A DNA stretch of 64,000 bases from Ochromonas danica (Eukaryota > Sar > Chrysophyceae > Chromulinales > Chromulinaceae). The notes below the pieces were generated by a model. That model made no database searches. It was not told the DNA's origin and was given only the letters and a program-made list of their open reading frames with translations. This document shows, piece after piece, positions 3,236 through 58,300 of the stretch (positions are counted from its first letter, which is position 1; each line of letters starts with the position of its first letter). The position numbers and the translations under genes are program-made. The stretch is taken from positions 1-64,000 of the forward strand of contig VKHL01000150.1 in assembly GCA_015146655.1 (NCBI GenBank), given 5' to 3'.

Positions 3236-6200
3236 TCAAGTGATGACAGTGGGCTTCTCAAAGCCAGTCAATCCAGCGATATCGCTAACCTTGAGAGCGA
3301 TAGCGACTAAGTCCTGCAAGGCCTCGGCCGTGGGCTGGATGACTTTCTCTGATTCGTACTTCTCAAGGTAGAGGCGAACGGTCGCTCCACTTCCAGCAGT
3401 GCCAGACAAGCGGAAGATGATGCGGCTACCATCTGCAAACAGAATTCTCAAACCTTGATTGTGGGAAACAGATCCGTCGATGGGGTCGTGATAGGTGAAC
3501 TCATCAGCAGTGGCAACGACAAGGCTGCCAAAGGAAGCGCCAGACAAGCTGCTGAACTGGCCACGCAGGTGATCCATCACTGCGGCAGCTTTCTTGCTAT
3601 CAACACCTTCATAATCGTAACGCGAGTAGAAGTTGCGACCGTACTGGCGCCAATGATTCTCAACAATGTCCTTGACGTGGACGAAAGGCTTGGAGTGGTC
3701 AGTGTTGTAGAAAGCCAAGATAGACAACCAAGCCAACACAGCCCAGAGACCATCCTTCTCGCGGACATGATCTGATCCAGTACCAAAGGACTCTTCACCG
3801 CAGATCATAGGGTTGTAGTCAGCACCATGGAACTGCTCCTTGGAATCCATCACATTGCCGAAGAATTTCCATCCAGTGGGTGTTTCAAAGAGAGCGAGGT
3901 TTAAACGCTTGGCCACCAGATCAACCGCGCCAGAAGTGGGCATAGAACGAGCAACAGCTTTCAGACCACCTTGTTGAGCAAAGAATGGAATCAAGTGAGC
4001 GTGAGCAGTGAGAATAGCCAACGAATCAGAAGGTGTAACGAAGAACTGTCTGCCAAGGATCATATTACGGTCGGCATCACCATCACATGCAGCACCAAAG
4101 ACTGGCACAGCCTCTGGATTGGCAGCAGGAAGAGGCTGACCAGTTTTGTCCACACCCATAATATCGCAAAGAGTGCGAGCATAGGTCAAGTTGGGATCAG
4201 CATGTCCTCCACCGAAGTCCTCCAGAGGTTTAGCATGGACGAGAACATCCTCAGGAGCGCCCAACTCCTCAACAAACACTCTACGGGCATAAGGACCTTG
4301 AACACCAGACATGCAGTCATACTTGAAATGGAAGTCAGGACGTTGGAGCAAGCGGCGAATGGCTCCAAAGTCGAAGACCGTCTTCAAAAGATTGACATGA
4401 ATCTCAGCAGGATCGACCACCTCAACAACGAAGTGCACCTCTCCATTAGGACTGGAGATAACACGACTGCCCACTGCGCTGATATCGATCGCAGGCAAAT
4501 CAGGGCAAGTGCGATAGGAGGTAAGAGTGGTGGAAATGGCATAGATTGCTTCAGTCACGCGCTCTGGAGCAGGACCACCATTCTCGCAGTTGTACTTGAT
4601 ACCGAAATCTTCATCTGGACCTCCCGGGTTGTGGGACGCAGTGAGAATGAAGGCACCATAAGCCTTCTGCCAAGCAGGGCCCCGTTCCCTAATGATAGCG
4701 CTCACAGCAGGAGTAGACAACAATCCATGCTGACCAATGACGACTCTACGAACTCCTTGAGCAGCAGCCATTTTAATGATTGACTGGATAGCCTCAGGGT
4801 TATGATAGCGACCATCGCCACCAAGCACTAAAGAGCCTCTGCTCAGATCTGTTCCGGCTTGAGCCACGGCAATGAAAGTTGACTGAACGAAGTTTTCCAA
4901 ATAATTTGGCTTCCCCGTGAACACACGAGTCTTCTTTCGCAAGCCAGAAGTTCCAGGCTTCTGATCATTGTAAGGAGTTGTGGTGACCGTCACAGGACGC
5001 AGAGGACCTAAGCCAAGTCGATCAGTCAGGTCGATGGTAGTGTCCTTGTAAACACCAGGAGGAAGAACTTTAGGCTCAGAAGAGTTATTGATAACGGTAA
5101 CATGACCCTGAATCACATTCTGCGCAGAAAACCAGACATCTCCCTTGACAGTGAGTTTGGTGGTATTGAGCAGAGAAGGATAGCCCAAACGAGTTGCCAC
5201 ATCCAAGGCCTGGACCAACTTGTACTTCTTGTCATCCAACTCCACAATAGGAGCCTTGTCGAGAGAAGGGTTCAAAACAAGAATGGCTTGGTCGTTCACA
5301 ACGTATGCATCAGAGCGCAGCAGAAGCAAGTCGGAACACTTCTTGACAGGAGCGAATCGACTTCTCGATACAGTCACAGCACGAGCACCAGGGAAGCATT
5401 CAATCGCAGCACCCATCGCTGTCTCAAGTTGGAAAACAGGGGTGGAGCTTTCTTGCTGAGGATCGACAGTCTTGGAGTTGAAAATGGTTGGCAAAGGAAC
5501 GAATCCTCCAGAGTTCTCCATCAAATCCTTCAACAAATCCAATCTCACCCAGAGATTGTTTGTGTTGAAATAGCGATGGCGAGTGATATCTTGGAAAGAC
5601 CCTTCATCAGTCTTGGCACATTGGGCAGACTCTCGCAGAATGAGGCGCTCATCAGCAGTACGCAAAGCGAGATGACCTCCTTTCTTGTCCGCCTCGGAAC
5701 GAAGGCAACACTCCATCAAGAAAGGAGCATTGGAGGAAGCGAAATAAGCCAACAGATCAACATCAAGAGTAGCACCTAAATTGTCCGAGTTGCTCACGAA
5801 CATGTACTTGATTCCCTCTTGCAAGAGAGCCTCCAACTTGCCGGAGCCATAGAGAGCAGTGTAGAGATCTCCATGACCAGGGGGGCACCACTCCAAATGC
5901 TTATTAATACTCCAATCGACAGGTAACCAAGTCTTCTTGTCAACCTTGGGAACTTTGTTTTGTACCAACTCTAACTTGGGGTCGCTGGTGAGGGAGGGAT
6001 ACTTGGACAGATAACTCAAGGTATCTTTCGAAGTGTTGAAGCTATTCATCAGCATGAACGCAATGTTACTCTTGAAACTATCTCTCATAGCGATAACTTG
6101 CTTCGCTGTAAGGTCCAAGAAAGTATTGCCAGCCTTCACTTCAAGTAAGGATTTGGCTTTATCCAATCCCATGGAGGTGCCCAAACCACCATTTAGTTTG

Positions 6201-6512
6201 AGTACTACCGTCTGTTGCAACAGGGAAGGATCAACTTGGTATTGGCCTCGGATATCGTTGTCAAGGTCAGGCAAGGAGGCAACGGGGGTGATCTCAGATT
6301 CGGGAATCATTCCCGAGGATCCACTCAGCAGTTCTGTGAAAGAGTGACGGAAAGCGGCGATGGCAGCTTCACTCAAGCCTTCCGCACGCATTTTACTCTA
6401 TCAGGTAATCAGATTATTCCAACCTCCGTTCAGACAATGATGACAGTGACTACAATCTTCTTCTTACCTCATAGAGAGGGAATGCTTCTTCAACTGTGGG
6501 TTTGGCAGACAT
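3236..6512 (-). CDS. UDP-glucose pyrophosphorylase / phosphoglucomutase fusion
   Basis: A bifunctional enzyme of 1068 residues that converts glucose-6-phosphate to glucose-1-phosphate (PGM half) and then to UDP-glucose (UGP half), feeding beta-glucan and sugar-nucleotide synthesis. Exon 1 is 6468-6512 and encodes MSAKPTVEEAFPLYE. A 70-nt intron (GTAAGA...ATAG) follows, then exon 2 at 6397-3236 starting SKMRAEGLSEAA, the usual UGPase N-terminus. The UGP signature LKLNGGLGTSMGLDK is near residues 81-95. The PGM half starts near KPGTSGLRKKT (495). It has the phosphoserine loop TASHNPGG (about 601-608), the metal site DGDADRN (about 787-793), GEESFG (about 882) and the phosphate-binding RLSGTAGSG (about 1011). 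All catalytic motifs are present. Starting at the in-frame Met at 6391 would lose the first 17 residues. The fusion is known in stramenopiles. Confidence 0.95.
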
Positions 6513-13690: not shown

Positions 13691-16517
13691 CTACAGCCCC
13701 GATGACTTGTGCAAGGAATTACGATTTGTCTTCCGATGTTCCAATAAGAGCACTAAGACAGCCACTGGAGCAATGACAATCATATTTCCGAAGAGAATGA
13801 TCCCCATGTAGATATTAAAACCTAAATTAGGTTTGTCGTCAAACTGAGAGCCACACACAGACTCCCAGCTGCTGTCATTGCCATTATAGTGCTTGAAGAT
13901 GCAAGTGGTCCACACGCTGAAGCTATCAAGGTAGCTGTCCTTGTCATGCAGTGTCTTGATGCGATTGAAGAGGTAGGGAAGGTAGAGAGCCAACGTGACG
14001 AAGACAGACAAGTAGGCCATCACATTGCTGCCTTTTGGATGAGTTTCCCTCACCACTCGAGACACTGACTTAATCGCAGCTCCTTCCTCAATGTCAGAAC
14101 AAATCAACGCATTATCGCCGTCATTCTCGCTCTTACTCGCAGTGCTTTGAATCACAGTGGATGCCATCGGTGGTGCCTCTCCACAAGAATCAGTCGCGCC
14201 GTCAAAAGGCATCAGGTCAGAAGAGATTGCATTGCGTTGAGCTTCAAAGAGCTGAACATCAGTGCGTTCTTTCTCCTCGACTGGACGTGTCACCACCACC
14301 ACTGCAGCAGGAGGGACAACAGAAGGGGCGGGGGAAGAAGGGGCAGGCAGAGGAGCATATGGGCGATCGGCCATCTGAATGCCATCATGCTCTGAGTTGC
14401 TAACAGCAATTCGCTTGCCTGATTTCCATTTCCTCCATCTCTTGATCACCACGTAGATTCGATGCACCACAATAATGATCAATGCTAATCCCGTGGCAAC
14501 GATGACAGGGATGGCAGTGAGATGGAGATCCAAGTTGTGTTTGTCAAAGGTTGGAGGAAGGACATAACACCACGGCATTGTCCTGGCAAAGCCAAAACCA
14601 TCGTGGCGATACACAAACGCTATGGGTAGGATTGGCAAGGCAAATATGACCAGAATCTGCACCGTGAAGTACAGCCAATGGTGTATGATAGCATATGAAA
14701 GGTAATTATAGCAAACGTGATGAATCGCCATCATCAATACTGTTGCTGCGCTTGATAGTAAGACATAGAGCAGCAAGATCGCTTGAATGAAGCAAGGGGA
14801 CCACGTCGCCACGGACTGACTCTGAGGCACGGCGTTGTCGTAACAAAAGCGATGCTGTGAGTCGTTCACTGATGGATAACGAAATGCCATTACGAGCGTC
14901 ACAACGGAGGCTATAAGGGAGAGAAATGTGAGGTGGAGGAGCAAGTAGAGCTTCTCCAATTCCTTTGGATGAACAAACAAAGTGCACATGAGAGCAATTC
15001 CTGCGATGGAAGAAACGAAAGGAACCCATTTTTGAGCTCTCAGTAATCGCTTCCATTCGCTTTCACTCCACACATTGGGTCTAACGGGGCACAAACACAA
15101 ACACACACATACAAGCCAATGAGCTCAATTCATCAATTGTCTGTCAATCGAACATATGATCGTCTCACCTACAATTAGCAGCACATCCCGTGGCACCAAT
15201 CCAGTTAACACCATCGTGATCAGGATGTTCTGGTACACAATATCCATAAGGACAAGATGTCTTGTAATCATCAGACGAACTATTATAATGTTCATCTGCT
15301 AAACGAACAGGACTGGAAGGAACAGAAAGATCTCCGATTTGCGGGTTGTTTGTCTTAATCACTTGGACAGTTTGATTAGCTTCAGGGAACAGATAGACTC
15401 CAGTAGAACTCTGTGCCAAGCAGTTGGGAATTAAGTTCGAATTGGTGGTAGATTTTAGCAGTTTAGCACAAGCGGTTGAATAGTTCAAACATATCTCGCG
15501 ATGTGGGAAACCGGGAACATAGAAGAACATATTCAATGCAGCGGGTTTAGAAGATTGAAGCTGTGCGATTACGGCTGTTTTACCAGACCATTCCAAAGCT
15601 CTTCGAAGGGTTACCTTTTGAGGAGGTTTGAAAGCCTGATAGCAAAAATAGGACCGCATATAATGCATACACTCTTCTCCAAGATAGACTGGCAACTGGG
15701 CTGTCATAGAAGCAACAGTCGCATAGAGCTTTTGTTGTATTGTTGTTGGAGGGGTGAGGACCGTCCACGACGAGTTTAACGTGGTGCCACCTGAAATAAA
15801 GATCTCACTAGCATAAGAGCCGCAAAAACTGCCATCATCCTCATGCAAATACGTCTCCTTCTGAGGTGCAAAGGCGACCAACTGGGTAGTATGGCAGAAT
15901 TGAGGGTTATCATTGCGAGCACCAAGTTCATAGCGATGTGGTTGGGTGGAGGTGACCACGAGACCTCTACTATAATCAAACCGATCTGATTTACAATTGG
16001 GTAAACCAAATAAACTAAGCAATGTGGTATTACAATACTTGAGCGTATTAAAGCAGAGTGATCCACATGGTCGAGTAAATGGTAAAGGAAAAGTTCGGTT
16101 GACTTCTAGATAGATCTCGAAGTTTAACGAGCTCTGATTGGCAAAGTTGAGGCCAGGATAGCATTTCAAGTAAATCTGAGAGCAAACCAGTGCGACCATA
16201 CTTTCACCACAATTTGAAGGAACTGCTTGTAGCATGGAGCTATTTAAGGCATTTCTTGCAAGTGTTTGATAGTATGACAAGGTCTTCCCTGGTGCGACAT
16301 AGAATGAGTAGGTGACCACGGAAGAACAGGGATTCACCAATCGTTCTGCACTTGTGCCTTGCAATTGTTGACAACTTCCAGTTGGAAGACTTTCCAAATC
16401 AATAGGCAAAGTACTTGACAATTCTTCTTCTAGCCAAGTCAAATCAGTTGAAAAGGAAGTGATGATGGGAAAGAAGAGGAAAAGAAGAAAAATGAAAGGA
16501 AAGATCGACATCCTCAT
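13691..16517 (-). CDS. Frizzled/smoothened-like seven-helix receptor
   Basis: Two exons, 16517-15169 and 15080-13691, joined by an 88-nt intron, give 912 residues. A signal peptide (FPFIFLLFLFFPIITSF) precedes a cysteine-rich ectodomain with frizzled-CRD features: CSSVVTYSF, CGESMVALVCSQIYLKCYP and PCGSLCFNTLKYCNTT. A second cysteine-containing ectodomain part ends at GYCVPEHPDHDG...GCAANC. Exon 2 carries seven hydrophobic segments, starting at WVPFVSSIAGIALMCTLFV. There is a long cytosolic insert of low complexity between the fifth and sixth helices, followed by NVMAYLSVFVTLALYLPYLF and a last helix near GFNIYMGIILFGNMIV. The layout is like the Fsl receptors of Dictyostelium. Ligand and coupling are unknown; Wnt signalling should not be assumed. 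The long exonic ectodomain and the splice junction at CR|P are clean. Confidence 0.75.
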
Positions 16518-17460
16518 ACGTCCAAGAGTTAATGAATGAATAAATTATAGAAATCAAGTGTTAAATCCAGTTCATTGGCTTCAACTGACTGTGAACTGGT
16601 CGACGACTTCTTCCCCTCTGCAATGCCCGCAAGTCTCTCAGCATTGGCAGTCACAGCACAGTGACGGTGACTGAGGTGACAGTCACAGTGGCGGTGTGAC
16701 AGTGACAGAGGCAAACTGGGCAGAGGGGGGGACGGATAAAATTCTCGGTGATTGCTTTGAGCCGTCGAAAGTCGTTGGTTCGCTAGAGATAAGTCGTAAA
16801 TATCGAGTTTGGACCGGACCATTTCCAACACCCCCTCAGACCTCCACAACAGAATTAAATGAAACGGCCCAAACTTGTTGCCTGCGCGTTTGTTTTTCAA
16901 AAGCTGCTGGAACTGGAACTGGAACTCATCCGAACTATTTACGATGCAGTGAATCCGACATGTCCTGCCCAATTGTTGGCAGGTTCCGGCTAGTTGTGGC
17001 CATCGCAACCCTTGTACTATTTTCAAATCACTTCAGAGTTCCTTCAGAATTCATCATCATGATGTGTCATAGTCAGTGGGGAATAGGGTTAGTCAGGGTT
17101 AGGGTTAGTCAGTGGGGAAGTGAAATCGCTCACTGAAATCGTGCAGATGGACTAGTTCTAAGAACAATACTCCTTCTCACAAGTTTCCACTGCCATTGGC
17201 AAGCCCATCATCGATGAATAAGCCACTGAAGATGACGATCAGGCAAGACGGGCACTTGCTATGCTTCCATTCTGATGGTAGACTGGCTACAATGGAAGCA
17301 TGACGTTTGGGTACACACAGATGCCGAGAAGTGCAAAATAGTGATCCATTGTTTACTCGGCCGCTGATCGGGAAGAAACTCAACTGATATGATGAGTACT
17401 TACATGCATAAACTTCACAGATAGACATGCAAATACTATTCGCTAACACTGATTCTTCAT
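16518..17460. other. Intergenic region with dyad-rich and telomere-like sequence
   Basis: Lies upstream of the frizzled-like gene and downstream of the SDR gene. It contains a cluster of GTGACAGTGAC/GTCACAGT dyads at about 16650-16710 and TTAGGG-like repeats at 17085-17109. A 165-codon minus frame here has no recognisable features and is not called. Confidence 0.5.
17071..17119. repeat. Interstitial TTAGGG-like repeats between 13-bp direct repeats
   Basis: Three GGGTTAG units, one separated from the other two by TCA, lie at 17086-17109. The 13-mer AGTCAGTGGGGAA occurs on both sides, at 17071-17083 and 17107-17119. It may mark a healed break or a small duplication. Confidence 0.6.
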
Positions 17461-21613: not shown

Positions 21614-22116
21614 CTATTGATAGAGGAGAAAGAAGGAGAGCAAAGACACAGCGAGGGTTAGAGTGAAGGACAGAGTCTGTAGACCTCCCCACCGCCTCGG
21701 CGCAGAGTTACAGTAGTCAGTCTTACAGCAGTAGGTAGTCCGCGTATATTCATTGCCTTGATAAGTAAAGGTAGTGGACCCTGCCGAGCAGGTGTCACTG
21801 CATTTCTTGAACTGACATTCACTGTTAGTGTAAATATCTCCATAATATTGGGTAGCTCCGCAGAGATTCTGAGTGAGAGTAGAGACCTGCTTCACGCAGT
21901 AGGTATTTCTATGAGATCAAAGGTTAAGGTCAGAGAGAAACGTAATGACGATGATAATTGTAGAGTAGTTCAGTACCGTGCTTCAGGACAAATGACTTTA
22001 TGTCGAGGTTGAGTAAGAGAAGAATAACATTGTAAAGAGTCCACAGGATAGGAAGACAATGAAGGAGAAGGTAAGAAGACTAAAAGCAGGTAGAGACTGA
22101 TAGCAATCACAATCAT
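21614..22116 (-). CDS. GPI-anchored Ly6/uPAR (three-finger)-like surface protein
   Basis: Two exons, 22116-21977 and 21908-21614, with a 68-nt intron (GTACTG...CATAG), give 144 residues. Residues 1-22 form a signal peptide (IAISLYLLLVFLP). The mature part starts near LQCYSS and holds ten cysteines in the spacing LQC, ICPEARNTYC, LCGATQ, ECQFKKCSDTC, then YCCKTDYCN. This is the CC-x-x-D-x-C-N ending of LU (Ly6/uPAR) domains. The second Cys of the usual CYxC start is replaced by Ser. A hydrophobic C-terminal tail after a short polar stretch fits a GPI-anchor signal. The frame is open further upstream to a Met at 22287, but only the 22116 start places the signal peptide at the N-terminus. LU domains are best known in animals, so this is notable. 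PIG-Q for GPI synthesis lies in the same window. Confidence 0.7.
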
Positions 22117-23413
22117 ATCATTCCAAGCAGGCTGGCGTCGAACAAGAAGGACTTCAAAAGGCCAGTCAAGTGCGGGAAGGACTGTTTTGAAACTGCTTAC
22201 TACACTGTATCCACACAAGAATTCCATGGAATAGGGAAGGAAGCCACGCAAGATAACAATTGAATACAGCAAAAGTCTCTTCTGCATCGTATGGTTTGCA
22301 TCATTTCCTTCAAGAAGGCAGTAGTCTGCTTGGTCTCGTCTCTCCCACTATCTTTGCACTCGGGGCACAATCGTATGAAGTGAGGTGTAAACCGATCAAC
22401 GATTATTGCTAGTTGAAAACTAACTCCAATCCCTTGCTTACCACAACGTGGGGAGCAAATTTTTAATGCCTGTGGGCACACACACTTCTATTACTTGTTT
22501 CTTTTATTATTCTATTACGTGCATCATCTACACTTTTCCATTCAGCTGATCCTTCTGTTGCCATCACTTTCATTTCTTGCGGTATCAATAAAATGCCCTT
22601 CTTCAAAATAATCAATGAAGACCCACTTGATTCTATGGAGCCAAATGAATTACTTCCATAGCGCTAGTTGACGAACGATGGCACCCTATTTTAGTGGATC
22701 AAATAATCAATTGAGTATGAGTTGTTTTTTAATTTGTTGACTAATAGCACCAATGACTAGTATTCATTAGAGCTCCTCCCACCCTTGATTTATCAGAGCA
22801 AATAAACGACGCTGCTTAGTCTTAATCTTACCGTCCCATCCCCTTAGATTGCTCCTTATGTACTGCAGCTCGAGCTGCTGTGCGATAGTTCCATAGCGAG
22901 TTACAACTTGTAAAACACATCTTGTTACAACTTGTCTACCACCTGCTTGCGATGTGATTGCTGACAGATGCCTTGAGAGTCCCCTCTTGCTCCTTGTTCT
23001 TCTATCTCTTGCTCCTTCTCTTAGACACCTTGCACTCCCAACGCCCTCGTTACAAAAGAGAACGATATCTTCACCACCACCATGACAAAGTTCCCAAAGA
23101 TACATTTGAGAAAATCTCAAAGTGTCTGCTGTTGCTGTACATGATTGTCTGCTGTAGATTCCAGACTGCCTTCTGATTCTACAGCAGACAATGGTGTAGT
23201 TACTGTAGTGCTTCTTCACGTTGGTCCACAGCCAAGGCAAACAACTCCAACATCTGCTGTGCAAAACACACCCGTTAAGTTGAGGGTTGGTTAAGTTAAG
23301 GAATGGAGGATGACGCGCGCCTCCTTGGATGGCCGCCCACGCCATCTTGCCAATCCTTCTTGTCTGCATCACCTCGGACAAGATCCCAACACAATTTGAT
23401 CCTGAGAGACACC
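22117..23413. other. Divergent upstream region of Ly6-like and carrier genes
   Basis: About 1.3 kb without a supported gene. It has a perfect 15-bp inverted repeat at 23144-23192 and GTTAAG repeats at about 23274-23299. A 204-codon minus frame at 22767-23381 has no family likeness and is not called. Confidence 0.5.
23144..23192. repeat. Perfect 15-bp inverted repeat with 19-nt loop
   Basis: The arm ATTGTCTGCTGTAGA at 23144-23158 is exactly complementary to 23178-23192. It could fold into a stable RNA hairpin or be the remnant of a small inverted-repeat element. It lies about 220 bp upstream of the carrier start. Confidence 0.7.
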
Positions 23414-54323: not shown

Positions 54324-57300
54324 TTAACCCCAGGCCCAGTTCTTCTTGTTGGTTGGGTCTTGTTCCAAGTCTTCCAAGGCTTTAACATTACCCACTAAGC
54401 CTTCAATACCTTGAAGAGGAGCGACATAGCTCTTTGTCAAGTGAATAAGGTCGTGTAACCGTGTGGTGATCTCATCACGAGCAGCTTCTTCTAGTTCTCC
54501 ATCGCCATCGACTTCCGAGACAAAGAATGAGATCAATCTCCTCTTATCATCATCAGTGAAGATGTTTCCATCGGCATTGACAGCATGGCTAACATAAACG
54601 GCGTATTTCATCACTTCCTTCGTCCAACGGACACAAGTGACTTCATCATATTTCCTGGCAGCACGAAGAGCCAAGTTGAGCAGCTGGTCGATATAACGTG
54701 CACAGACAGCCTCGATAATTTCCACGGCGAAGTTCTCGGGGATTTCATAAACCTCCTGTAGATCTTTCACGTCATCTGACATGTCATGTTCTACAAGATA
54801 TTGAACTTCCAATGCATAGAGAAGAGCCACGACCTTTTCACTTAGGCCAGTATCCTTCTGCATCTCAAGACCCAAGCTTTGCACCTAAACAACAACAACA
54901 TAATCAAGTAATAGCGTGAGCATGAGAATCAAGGAGAGTTGCTTGTATTAGAAGCGTACCTGTTCGCGGAAAGTGCGAGCTGATTCAGGAGTGAAAGGAC
55001 GTCCAAAGTAGTTGTCTTTCACCAATCTGGCAGCGTGGTCTAACACCGCTCCCTTGCAAGCATTCATAAAGATTTCACTTGCAGCGTCATCGTTCAAACT
55101 CAAACCTTCCTTGAGAAGAGCGAACTGTTGGATATCCTGAGGCTCTACAGCTGGCTTGTATGTTAACACATGCTTGAGTAAGTTCTTGTAAGCATTGAAA
55201 GCCAACGCCTCCTTGGCCTTAGCTTGACCTTCCTCATCAATACCCAAGATCTTGGCATAGAGTTCTTCCACTTCTTCATAGCGACTCTTGAGGGCGGGAT
55301 CAGTCTCAGCCAATCGGCTAATGAGGAAGTGTTTGTATATTCCGACCAAGTCTTCCTCAGTCACCACTCCCACGGCAGTGACAGGCAGGTTCTCCTTGGC
55401 AGCAATATCCACACCTTGTAAGACAAAGTTCTCTTGAACAAAGTCCACCAGATTAACCACTTCACGCATGAAGACATTTGGTCCACCACCTTCCTTGGCT
55501 GCACCCATTTCCATGTAGCCAAATACATTATCAGGAGAGGAGATGGGATCACGAGACTTATCCTTGGCATTCGATTTGTCTTTCTTGCCTTCCTTCTTCT
55601 CTTTCTCTCGACGATAGTTAGCATCTGTATCAGACTTCCACACATCCACCAAGTTCTTCATAATAGGAATGACACGTTGTCTAGCAACAACACTCAAAAT
55701 AGCTTCTGCCTGGTCAGAAGTTAGTTGTAATCTATCACGAAGACGTTCTAATCCTGGTACATATTCTTCAGCAATGACACCTGTAGGTCCCATAGCCTCT
55801 GACAATGCCTTGGCATACTTGTCACCAAAGAGTTCGAGATGAACCTTCGTGACTGCAGAGTCCGTACAAGTCAAGAAAGAGCGCAAGGCAGTCAAGCGAG
55901 CCATATCGTCTACACTGGGTACCGCTTTACTGTTCGAAATACGCGATGCTTCCTGGTAGTAGAAGTCCACCGCCGTGGCAGCCCATTCTCTCTCACCCAC
56001 TTGATACTCTTGTAGAATCTTTTGATAAGCATCTCTTGCACCATCATTGAAATTGCCTTCAGTGATACATTGAGTAATCCAAGTGGTAACCTTTGGCAAT
56101 GCCATGTTCTTGCGTACAAGTTGTTGTTGACCGGGAGTCAGGTCAAACATCGCGGCATCAACAATAGGCTTGCCTTGTTCACCTTTCTGTAATTGTAACT
56201 CATAAATACTAGCACGTACCATATCTGCGAATGGCAGGCCGGGAAGAGGTAACTCAGTGCCATTAAGCACATTACGAACCAACGTGTTGAGAGCATCATG
56301 AGTATGAGCAAAGCCTACCATGATCTTGAATACAGGCTCAATTGAACCTTGAGAGACATTATAGACCTTATCCAGTCTAGTCATGTACTCATTATTCAGC
56401 TTCGACATGAGATTGGTCAAGACCACACGAGCTTTCTGCTCGTCAATACTCAATGCTTTCACACGCTCTTCAATTTGTGCTGCAAGTTCAATAGCCTTGT
56501 CAGGCTTATCAACAACAGCATTAATGAGGTCAGAGGCAACGTCTTCAAAGAGAGGCAAAGTGCGTAACTCCACTGTGGCCTGGAATTCGCGATAATTCCA
56601 TCCCAACACCTCTTGTGCTTTGCGTAAATTATCAAATCCTTCGACCACAGCATTCATAGGTGTGACAGACTCCTTCTTGAGTGAAGTATCCAAGAGGAAT
56701 TGAATAGCTTCCATGATCATATTCTGCATGTTAGCAGGTCGTAAGGATGAGACACTAGCAGTAGTTGTGAGATAGCCTTGTAAGTTATTAATCTCATCGA
56801 TGGTGAAGGCTTCAGGATCGACTAGAACACTCTCAATACAACGACGGAAGAGCTTCGTACAAGAGTCAGAGATAGTCTTCTGGTACTGTTCATCCGTGAA
56901 GTACGACAACGCCACGAGTGCTCGCTTGCCATAAAAGCCTTTTAATGAGCCAATCATCTTATCCGCAAGGAAGAACACCTTGGCTGCTTGAAGATAGACA
57001 TCGACAGGATATTCCACCACATAGATGCCTCTCTCATCTTTCTCTAATTGCTTACCAATCTTAACCGCAGCGAGAGAGAAGGCATTACCAATCTCACTCT
57101 CAGTAAAACCAATACTTTGTGCAAAATCTAATACATCTTGTAACTCAGTCAGATCCATAGAAGTACTTTGAACAGCTTCTACAATTGCTTCTGAGAAGGC
57201 TAACGTGAAGAAGAAGCTGAGCTCATTAGCAGAGAGGCCGTGCTTCTTGGCGATCTTCTCTAACCCTTTCAAATCTAGGGATAATACAGAGATTCCTTCT

Positions 57301-57833
57301 AATGCCTTAGCCGCATTCTTGACTTTATTCGGTACACCCACATAGGCAGTGTCTGGACTGATAGCTGGGCGCTCTCGACTCAGAATTATCTTACGAACTA
57401 CTGCGCCAGCGACACCCCCTGCAGCAGCACCTGCAATACGCACTGCCACAGATGGAGAGGGAGTGACTGCAAAGCCTAAAGAAGCAGCCAAAGGAATGAT
57501 TCCACGGGACAGCTTCCTCAGCATTGATGGAGTCTTTGCTAAACGACCATTTGCCTTTTCTAATTCATCACTATCCTCCTCCTCCTCCTCTTCATCGTCG
57601 TCTTCTTCTTTCAAAGAAGCATTACCAGACGCCGCGGTAGAATCACCTTCATCATTGTCTGAAACACGAAAATGCAAAGGGAGACGAAGAAGAGAAGAAG
57701 ACGAGGAAGAACTTGTTGATTGCAACAAGACATTGCTATAGGGTCTTTGTAGTAGTCGAGGTTGTGAAAATAGCTTGAAGGAAGACAGACAAGGCAAGGC
57801 CACAAGAAGGAAAGGAATGGTAACAACCACCAT
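54324..57833 (-). CDS. TIC110-like plastid inner-envelope protein
   Basis: Exons 57833-54960 and 54884-54324, with a 75-nt intron, give 1144 residues. TIC110 is a scaffold or channel component at the plastid inner envelope for protein import. The N-terminus is an ER signal (IPFLLVALPCLSS) followed by Phe, the ASAF-type cleavage site, then a Ser-rich transit stretch and a Glu/Asp run at about 76-92. A hydrophobic segment follows (GIIPLAASLGFAV...AVRIAGAAAGGVAGAVV), fitting the TM helices of TIC110. The rest is all-helical, soluble and Glu/Lys/Ala-rich, like the stromal domain of TIC110 repeats (for example SANELSFFFTLAFSEAIVEAV). No enzyme motif is seen. Because TIC110 sequences are poorly conserved outside plants and red algae, the name is likely but not certain. 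It is divergent to the NYN-like plastid gene. Confidence 0.72.
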
Positions 57834-58300
57834 GATGACACTGACTGAAGGATCTCTTCTTCAATCAAATTCAAGCAATCAAATAGTCAATTTACTATAC
57901 TTTCTCTACAAACTTGCTAGAAAAAAATAAAGGATTTCTTTTGCATCCACAGGTCCAAGAAATCAAGAATAGCGCAAGTAAACGCAATGCAATGCTAAAG
58001 GTTCGACCAACTGAGAAGAAAGGTTGAAAGGCAAGGCTGCAGTGCGAGGGCAGTGGGCAGGCCAACAGAGCGAGGGTGAGTGAGGCGTGAGTGAGTGCGT
58101 GTCGAGTGGACGCGTGTGCGGTGTGCGCGTGTGGGTGTGGGCAGGACGGGACGACAACTTTACAATCACCACCCACACCAAGGGGGTTAACATGTCAACG
58201 AAAAGAGCTTCTCTCTTCAAGATAGAAAAAACGCGATTTTTGCCTGTCCAGCGCAACAATAATAATCAGCAGCCCATTCTGTTGTTGTTGTGGGGAATGT
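57834..58300. promoter_or_regulatory. Divergent promoter region, TIC110 / NYN genes
   Basis: Contains a GTGTG/GCGTG-rich stretch at about 58098-58142 and an AAAAAACGCGATTTTT palindrome-like box at 58226-58241, a variant of the AAAACGCGTT motif. Both neighbours look plastid-targeted, so joint control is plausible. Confidence 0.45.

Follow-up and report, generated by a model that had tools for sequence, protein, structure and literature searches.

Does the three-finger fold of the LU (Ly6/uPAR) proteins occur outside animals, and if so, how did it get there? The question is raised by a gene on the minus strand at 21614–22116 of the first 64,000 nucleotides of Ochromonas danica contig VKHL01000150.1, the stretch analyzed here (the window). 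In our view the product probably belongs to the three-finger (LU/Ly6-uPAR) superfamily and sits, held by a glycosylphosphatidylinositol (GPI) anchor, on the cell surface of a photosynthetic alga, where it would bind a conserved partner. Superfamily membership is supported by the fold predicted for relatives and by the core cysteines. The three-finger shape is familiar above all from snake toxins and from animal proteins like CD59, but it probably occurs outside animals as well. Fungi, plants, choanoflagellates and Capsaspora go unmentioned in the main text of a 2019 review (PMC6600238), and a search of the literature (titles and abstract openings, mostly non-subscription) turned up, among the papers listed, none on LU or three-finger proteins from algae, diatoms or stramenopiles. 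An LU-type family that is conserved in algae shifts the question of origin beyond animals, and a single known gene copy offers a system for learning the function of a three-finger surface protein in one cell.

Gene Structure and Relatives

Read directly from the DNA, the gene starts with an ATG at 22116, ends with a TAG stop and specifies a spliced product of 144 amino acids (Table 1). Left unspliced, the frame meets a stop immediately past the 5′ splice site. The sole modelled intron is in phase 2 and lies before the third cysteine, and the stretch coding for finger II is a single open exon. The product has ten cysteines, at residues 30, 43, 51, 63, 78, 83, 87, 107, 108, and 113, the final three being part of a YCCKTDYCN ending that precedes the hydrophobic tail. 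Among the 318 stop-to-stop frames of at least 60 amino acids in the window, the motif CCxx[DN]xCN was found once, in the frame of this gene.

Three protein-database searches, in which 6 of 61, 51 of 1227, and 81 of 2875 candidates were kept at E-values of ≤1, ≤1, and ≤10, yielded 103 distinct relatives; some matches of the second and third searches were already inside the query alignment, so that their high scores arise by construction. Most relatives come from metagenome or read-archive assemblies, and the family appears to occur across many environmental samples. Four relatives are from EukProt (P0020, P0048, P0082, and P0098) and two from MMETSP transcripts (P0077 and P0094), indicating that some relatives are transcribed. 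In an alignment of 32 mostly full-length members, hand-picked from the 103 and excluding the window protein, the ten cysteines and an Asn behind the last of them are invariant (32/32), with pairwise domain identities of 26–96% (median 49%). The usual spacing is C-x12-C-x7-C-x11-C-x14-C-x4-C-x3-C-x19-CC-x4/5-CN. A script detected the ten-cysteine pattern in 24 of 49 sequences (52 minus three without the closing motif), and 22 of these, the window protein included, fall within one residue of the usual spacing; the exceptions are P0001, which was matched via a retained insert, and P0045, which has longer gaps. Relative P0051 is a divergent 83-residue match (E = 6.6e-4, second search) with a PF00021 E-value of 1.1e-4, about equal to that of the best members scanned singly, and could be a family member or another LU protein, perhaps from an animal. 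In a subgroup (P0057, P0059–P0061, P0063, P0065, P0068, P0069, and P0072), a long N-terminal extension precedes the LU domain and carries a recurring segment, roughly GY[IV]DxTxxGxxLTNGxYPST.

The relatives also support the intron. In 64 of 103, the sequence passes from ...CP to CVKE without an insert, which reproduces the joined junction and bears out the two-exon structure proposed in the initial annotation; these 64 may come from genes without introns or, as transcripts or gene models, have been spliced. An in-frame insert is present at the junction in six relatives (P0001, P0014, P0015, P0039, P0045, and P0049), at the Arg codon used in the window gene in five of them and approximately one codon upstream in P0015. 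Another 19 lack the exon 1 part and start no more than 49 residues ahead of the CVKE cysteine, which is what gene callers that ignore splicing would produce from metagenomes. The remaining 14 are not classifiable at the junction, among them P0102 and P0103, which consist of exon 1 only. P0077 alone matches the window at 21934–22098 (E = 0.005, 33% identity), in an alignment that extends into the intron stop. Judged from these sequences, the gene is more than a chance finding, because it has 103 related proteins, an invariant set of ten cysteines plus Asn, and a junction that relatives reproduce.

Predicted Fold and Cysteine Pattern

AlphaFold2 models were obtained for two relatives rather than for the window protein, and both adopt a three-finger fold with the expected strand order; the contrary fold that would have told against the initial annotation did not appear. 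The best Foldseek matches of both models are LU proteins or three-finger toxins, with Lynx1 ranked first in each case, and all 50 matches displayed in the VIA listing for each model have the three-finger fold, with snake toxins among the top rows. The window protein scores below the Pfam cut-offs for PF00021 (14.6 vs. 24.8 bits) and PF00087 (14.5 vs. 21.2 bits). When 20 relatives were scanned singly, P0010 (25.1 bits) and P0051 (21.3 bits) passed the PF00087 cut-off. In a set of 43 members, 7 matched PF01064 weakly. Searches of PDB profiles with the family returned no LU chain among the matches.

A profile of the family was also compared with six human LU domains and scored 34.4 (probability 87%) over an aligned part that covers only the second half of the domain. 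The reversed profile scored 9.6, and 60 permutations per control reached maxima of 18.6 when all columns were permuted and 29.6 when cysteines were held fixed and the others permuted. The observed score is above all 60 cysteine-fixed permutations, which is suggestive, not conclusive. In a forced full-length alignment, family cysteines 1, 2, 3, 6, 7, 8, 9, and 10 correspond to LU cysteines 1, 4, 5, 6, 7, 8, 9, and 10, of which LU cysteines 6–10 were mapped in the scored alignment and 1, 4, and 5 in the forced alignment only. These core LU cysteines, in order and followed by Asn after Cys 10, are present in the window protein and in 32/32 members. The finger-I pair formed by LU cysteines 2 and 3 is missing from the window protein and from 31/32 members, and an additional pair (family Cys 4 and 5) occupies finger II in all 32. 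The set of ten thus combines the eight plesiotypic LU positions with a further pair in finger II and differs from a canonical ten-cysteine LU domain. Cys 4 and 5 are presumably bonded to each other inside finger II, and the order of the cysteines and the positions of the strands suggest disulfides 1-3, 2-6, 4-5, 7-8, and 9-10 (family numbering); the core connectivity of the LU superfamily is 1-5, 4-6, 7-8, and 9-10 in LU numbering. The exception in finger I is the MMETSP transcript P0094, which has two extra cysteines there along with a long finger-II insert and might connect the family to the canonical form with ten cysteines. The 2019 review describes loss of the 2-3 bond as common within the LU superfamily and gains of extra bonds as also known (PMC6600238), and because such loss is common, membership stands despite the missing pair. 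The initial annotation of a three-finger LU protein holds for the fold (as modelled in relatives), the signal-like start, the GPI-type tail and the closing motif; the ten cysteines that it counted are present but are not the canonical LU set.

The algal family shares with animal Ly6/uPAR proteins (CD59, Lynx1, GPIHBP1, uPAR, and fly LU proteins; PF00021) a predicted three-finger fold, a single domain, the LxCY start, the CC-x4-CN end with Asn behind the last cysteine, the signal-like start and the GPI-type tail, and it differs from them in lacking the finger-I pair and in the extra finger-II pair placed around a conserved CGxTQYFGD. With the snake toxin and toxin-like family (PF00087) it shares an eight-cysteine core without the 2-3 pair, and P0010 exceeds the cut-off of that family. 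Unlike snake toxins, nearly all members have a GPI-type tail, which argues against a free secreted protein, and nothing in the analysis pointed to toxicity. The finger-II pair encloses 14 residues, presumably more than in long-chain toxins. The ectodomains of activin/TGF-beta receptors (PF01064) are of the same fold class, whereas the algal protein has no kinase and ends in a hydrophobic tail.

Evolutionary Origin

The initial annotation had left the origin as convergent, ancient or acquired, and of these, recent acquisition from an animal is now disfavored. LU proteins have been described from almost all animal phyla, according to the 2019 review (PMC6600238), and P0051, with its LU-like scores, may come from an animal; we nonetheless consider it very improbable that the gene arrived by recent horizontal transfer from an animal or through animal DNA contaminating the assembly. 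The contig around the gene measures 64 kb or more, and the gene is ordinary in composition: its GC content of 0.446 (0.462 at third codon positions) falls between the extremes of ten other window frames, and GC over the window varies from 0.37 to 0.54 in 2-kb steps. A Tic110-like frame (below the cut-off) lies about 33 kb away, and the genome contains numerous light-harvesting matches. The family is diverse, with its own intron. The intron described for animal LU genes is in phase 1 and falls at the tip of loop 2 (PMC6600238), in contrast to the phase-2 intron before Cys 3 in the algal gene. With an intron placed and phased unlike that of animal genes, and a family that is deep and distinct, recent acquisition from an animal looks unlikely.

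Convergence deserves more weight. An unrelated, small, disulfide-rich algal surface protein may have independently reached a three-finger-like fold and a CC-x4-CN end. In its favor are the weak likeness to animal LU proteins (a window protein below the Pfam cut-offs, no LU chain in the PDB profile searches), a first half that aligns only when forced, the absent finger-I and extra finger-II pairs, and an intron unlike the animal one in the phase and position given in PMC6600238. Against it are the eight cysteines in the same order, the Asn after the final cysteine, the LxCY start, the CC-x4-CN end, the combination of signal and GPI-type tail and, as a suggestive point only, the profile score above the cysteine-fixed maximum. 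We regard convergence as a real but unlikely alternative. The shared core cysteines, the start and end of the domain and the cysteine-fixed permutation test tip the balance tentatively toward common descent.

The 2019 review proposes TGF-beta receptors as a possible place where the LU domain first arose (PMC6600238). We also looked among viruses and prokaryotes. Pattern searches gave 4 and 31 matches in viral contigs and 9 in GTDB prokaryote contigs, none confirmed as a relative with these few short patterns, which distant relatives can escape; the best match among viral structures had an E-value of only 0.34.

Probable Surface Display and Candidate Partners

The protein would be secreted and then folded with five disulfides, cleaved near N114–A116 and displayed by a GPI anchor on the outer face of the plasma membrane. 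The window protein has a hydrophobic start, and its last 12 residues are uncharged. Strongly hydrophobic tails were found in 47 of 49 sequences, the window protein among them, and in 42 of 49 the final 12 residues are uncharged. This composition is consistent with GPI attachment signals, and anchoring is what we infer from it. The initial annotation also named PIG-Q in the same window, and a PF05024 match (E = 2e-40) confirms it; a match to Gpi16 lies elsewhere in the genome (E = 1e-15). Gpi16 is a subunit of the GPI transamidase. Together, the PIG-Q and Gpi16 matches indicate that GPI attachment is possible in the host.

Across the 32 members, the mean fraction of the most frequent residue is 0.59–0.66 for fingers I (YSSLTKPD) and II (CGxTQYFGD), 0.46 for finger III, and 0.31–0.32 for the signal and tail. 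A conserved protein partner would be bound through the well-conserved tips of the first two fingers, and such a conserved face points to a conserved partner rather than to a fast-changing, species-specific recognition signal. Between the cysteines, conservation is highest in fingers I and II, so a role in species recognition, as in fish Bouncer, seems less likely.

One candidate partner, as a special case of the anchored surface protein proposed above, is a pentameric ligand-gated channel of the alga itself, which the protein would bind and tune in the manner of Lynx, much as certain GPI-anchored LU proteins act on nicotinic receptors, members of the same channel class, in animals. The genome encodes two closely similar channel homologues (C9, 172939–173514, and C16, 42229–42804), with stop-to-stop frames of 566 and 557 amino acids. 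Both exceed the PF02931 cut-off (E = 1.3e-7 and 3.9e-6, respectively), and the solved chains nearest the C9 homologue include GABA-A rho1, GluCl, and GLIC. The transmembrane family PF02932 stays below its cut-off in these homologues, which weighs against a Lynx-like role. Protist pentameric channels with and without a Cys loop are known, the diatom ones being without, according to two reports (PMC4795631, PMC11085791), and binding to nicotinic receptors is described for some of the LU proteins of animals (PMC6600238). The conserved fingers I and II fit a single conserved partner, and Lynx1 ranks first in Foldseek for both models, but LU partners are very diverse and a first rank in Foldseek is uninformative on function. 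A Lynx-like modulator is a doubtful prospect. The algal family offers a concrete test of a partnership between LU proteins and pentameric channels before nervous systems. The broadest version is at least as doubtful: here the three-finger LU proteins would predate animals, with a GPI-anchored family surviving in photosynthetic protists and tuning their own pentameric channels, and the pairing would be older than nerves.

Copy Number and Genomic Context

Light-harvesting proteins are matched 47 times in the genome (31.19 Mb in 337 contigs), with gene fragments among the matches, indicating that the host is photosynthetic, in agreement with the alga initially named. The initial annotation had also called for a search for further copies, which we made without finding a second. 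Searching the genome with exon 2 returned only the self-match. As a DNA pattern, the closing motif has 23 sites, vs. 9 for a reversed control, and translations around the 23 sites, inspected by eye, showed an LU-like context only at the site of the window gene. Two weak matches of the P0098 and P0077 searches were rejected: the C4 site (E = 0.003) is interrupted by a stop, and the C5 site (E = 0.16) is by eye a zinc-finger-like frame; neither 3-kb locus contains a CC-x3-6-CN motif in any frame. Genome searches with PF00021 and PF00087 found nothing and carry little weight, as they were also silent in control genomes and would overlook a weak match divided between two exons. One copy has thus been found in the alga, as opposed to the clusters of animal LU genes, and a distant paralogue may exist.

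Table 1. Features of the LU-type gene in window coordinates.
Feature	Position	Strand	Description	Basis
Exon 1	21977..22116	-	140 nt; start codon, signal-like N-terminus, first part of LU domain (Cys 1 in LQCY, Cys 2 in ICPE)	Direct reading
Presumed signal-peptide coding region	22051..22116	-	Residues 1-22	Translation judged by eye
Intron	21909..21976	-	68 nt; GT-AG (GTACTG...CATAG), phase 2, within Arg codon of ICPEAR/NTYC (slash marks the junction)	Direct reading
Exon 2	21614..21908	-	295 nt; Cys 3-10 of LU domain, GPI-type tail, stop	Direct reading; conserved in relatives
CCKTDYCN, LU-type closing motif	21707..21730	-		Pattern search
C-terminal tail	21617..21706	-	Residues 115-144; small residues past CN, short spacer, uncharged hydrophobic end	Tail statistics

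Approximately 230 bases upstream of the ATG, a U4 spliceosomal RNA gene runs in the opposite direction at 22350–22478 on the plus strand (RF00015, 88.7 bits). The Tic110-like frame (54948–57860, minus strand; E = 1.8e-5, under the Pfam cut-off) has by eye an apparent bipartite plastid presequence, and a genome search with PF16940 (Tic110) found none, this search being silent everywhere. At 13691–16544 on the minus strand, a secreted cysteine-rich frame is followed by one with several membrane segments, receptor-like by eye; a Frizzled-like reading of this region, also made by eye, was dropped, having no Pfam support. On the same strand at 3236–6397, UDP-glucose pyrophosphorylase and phosphoglucomutase are fused in a single frame.
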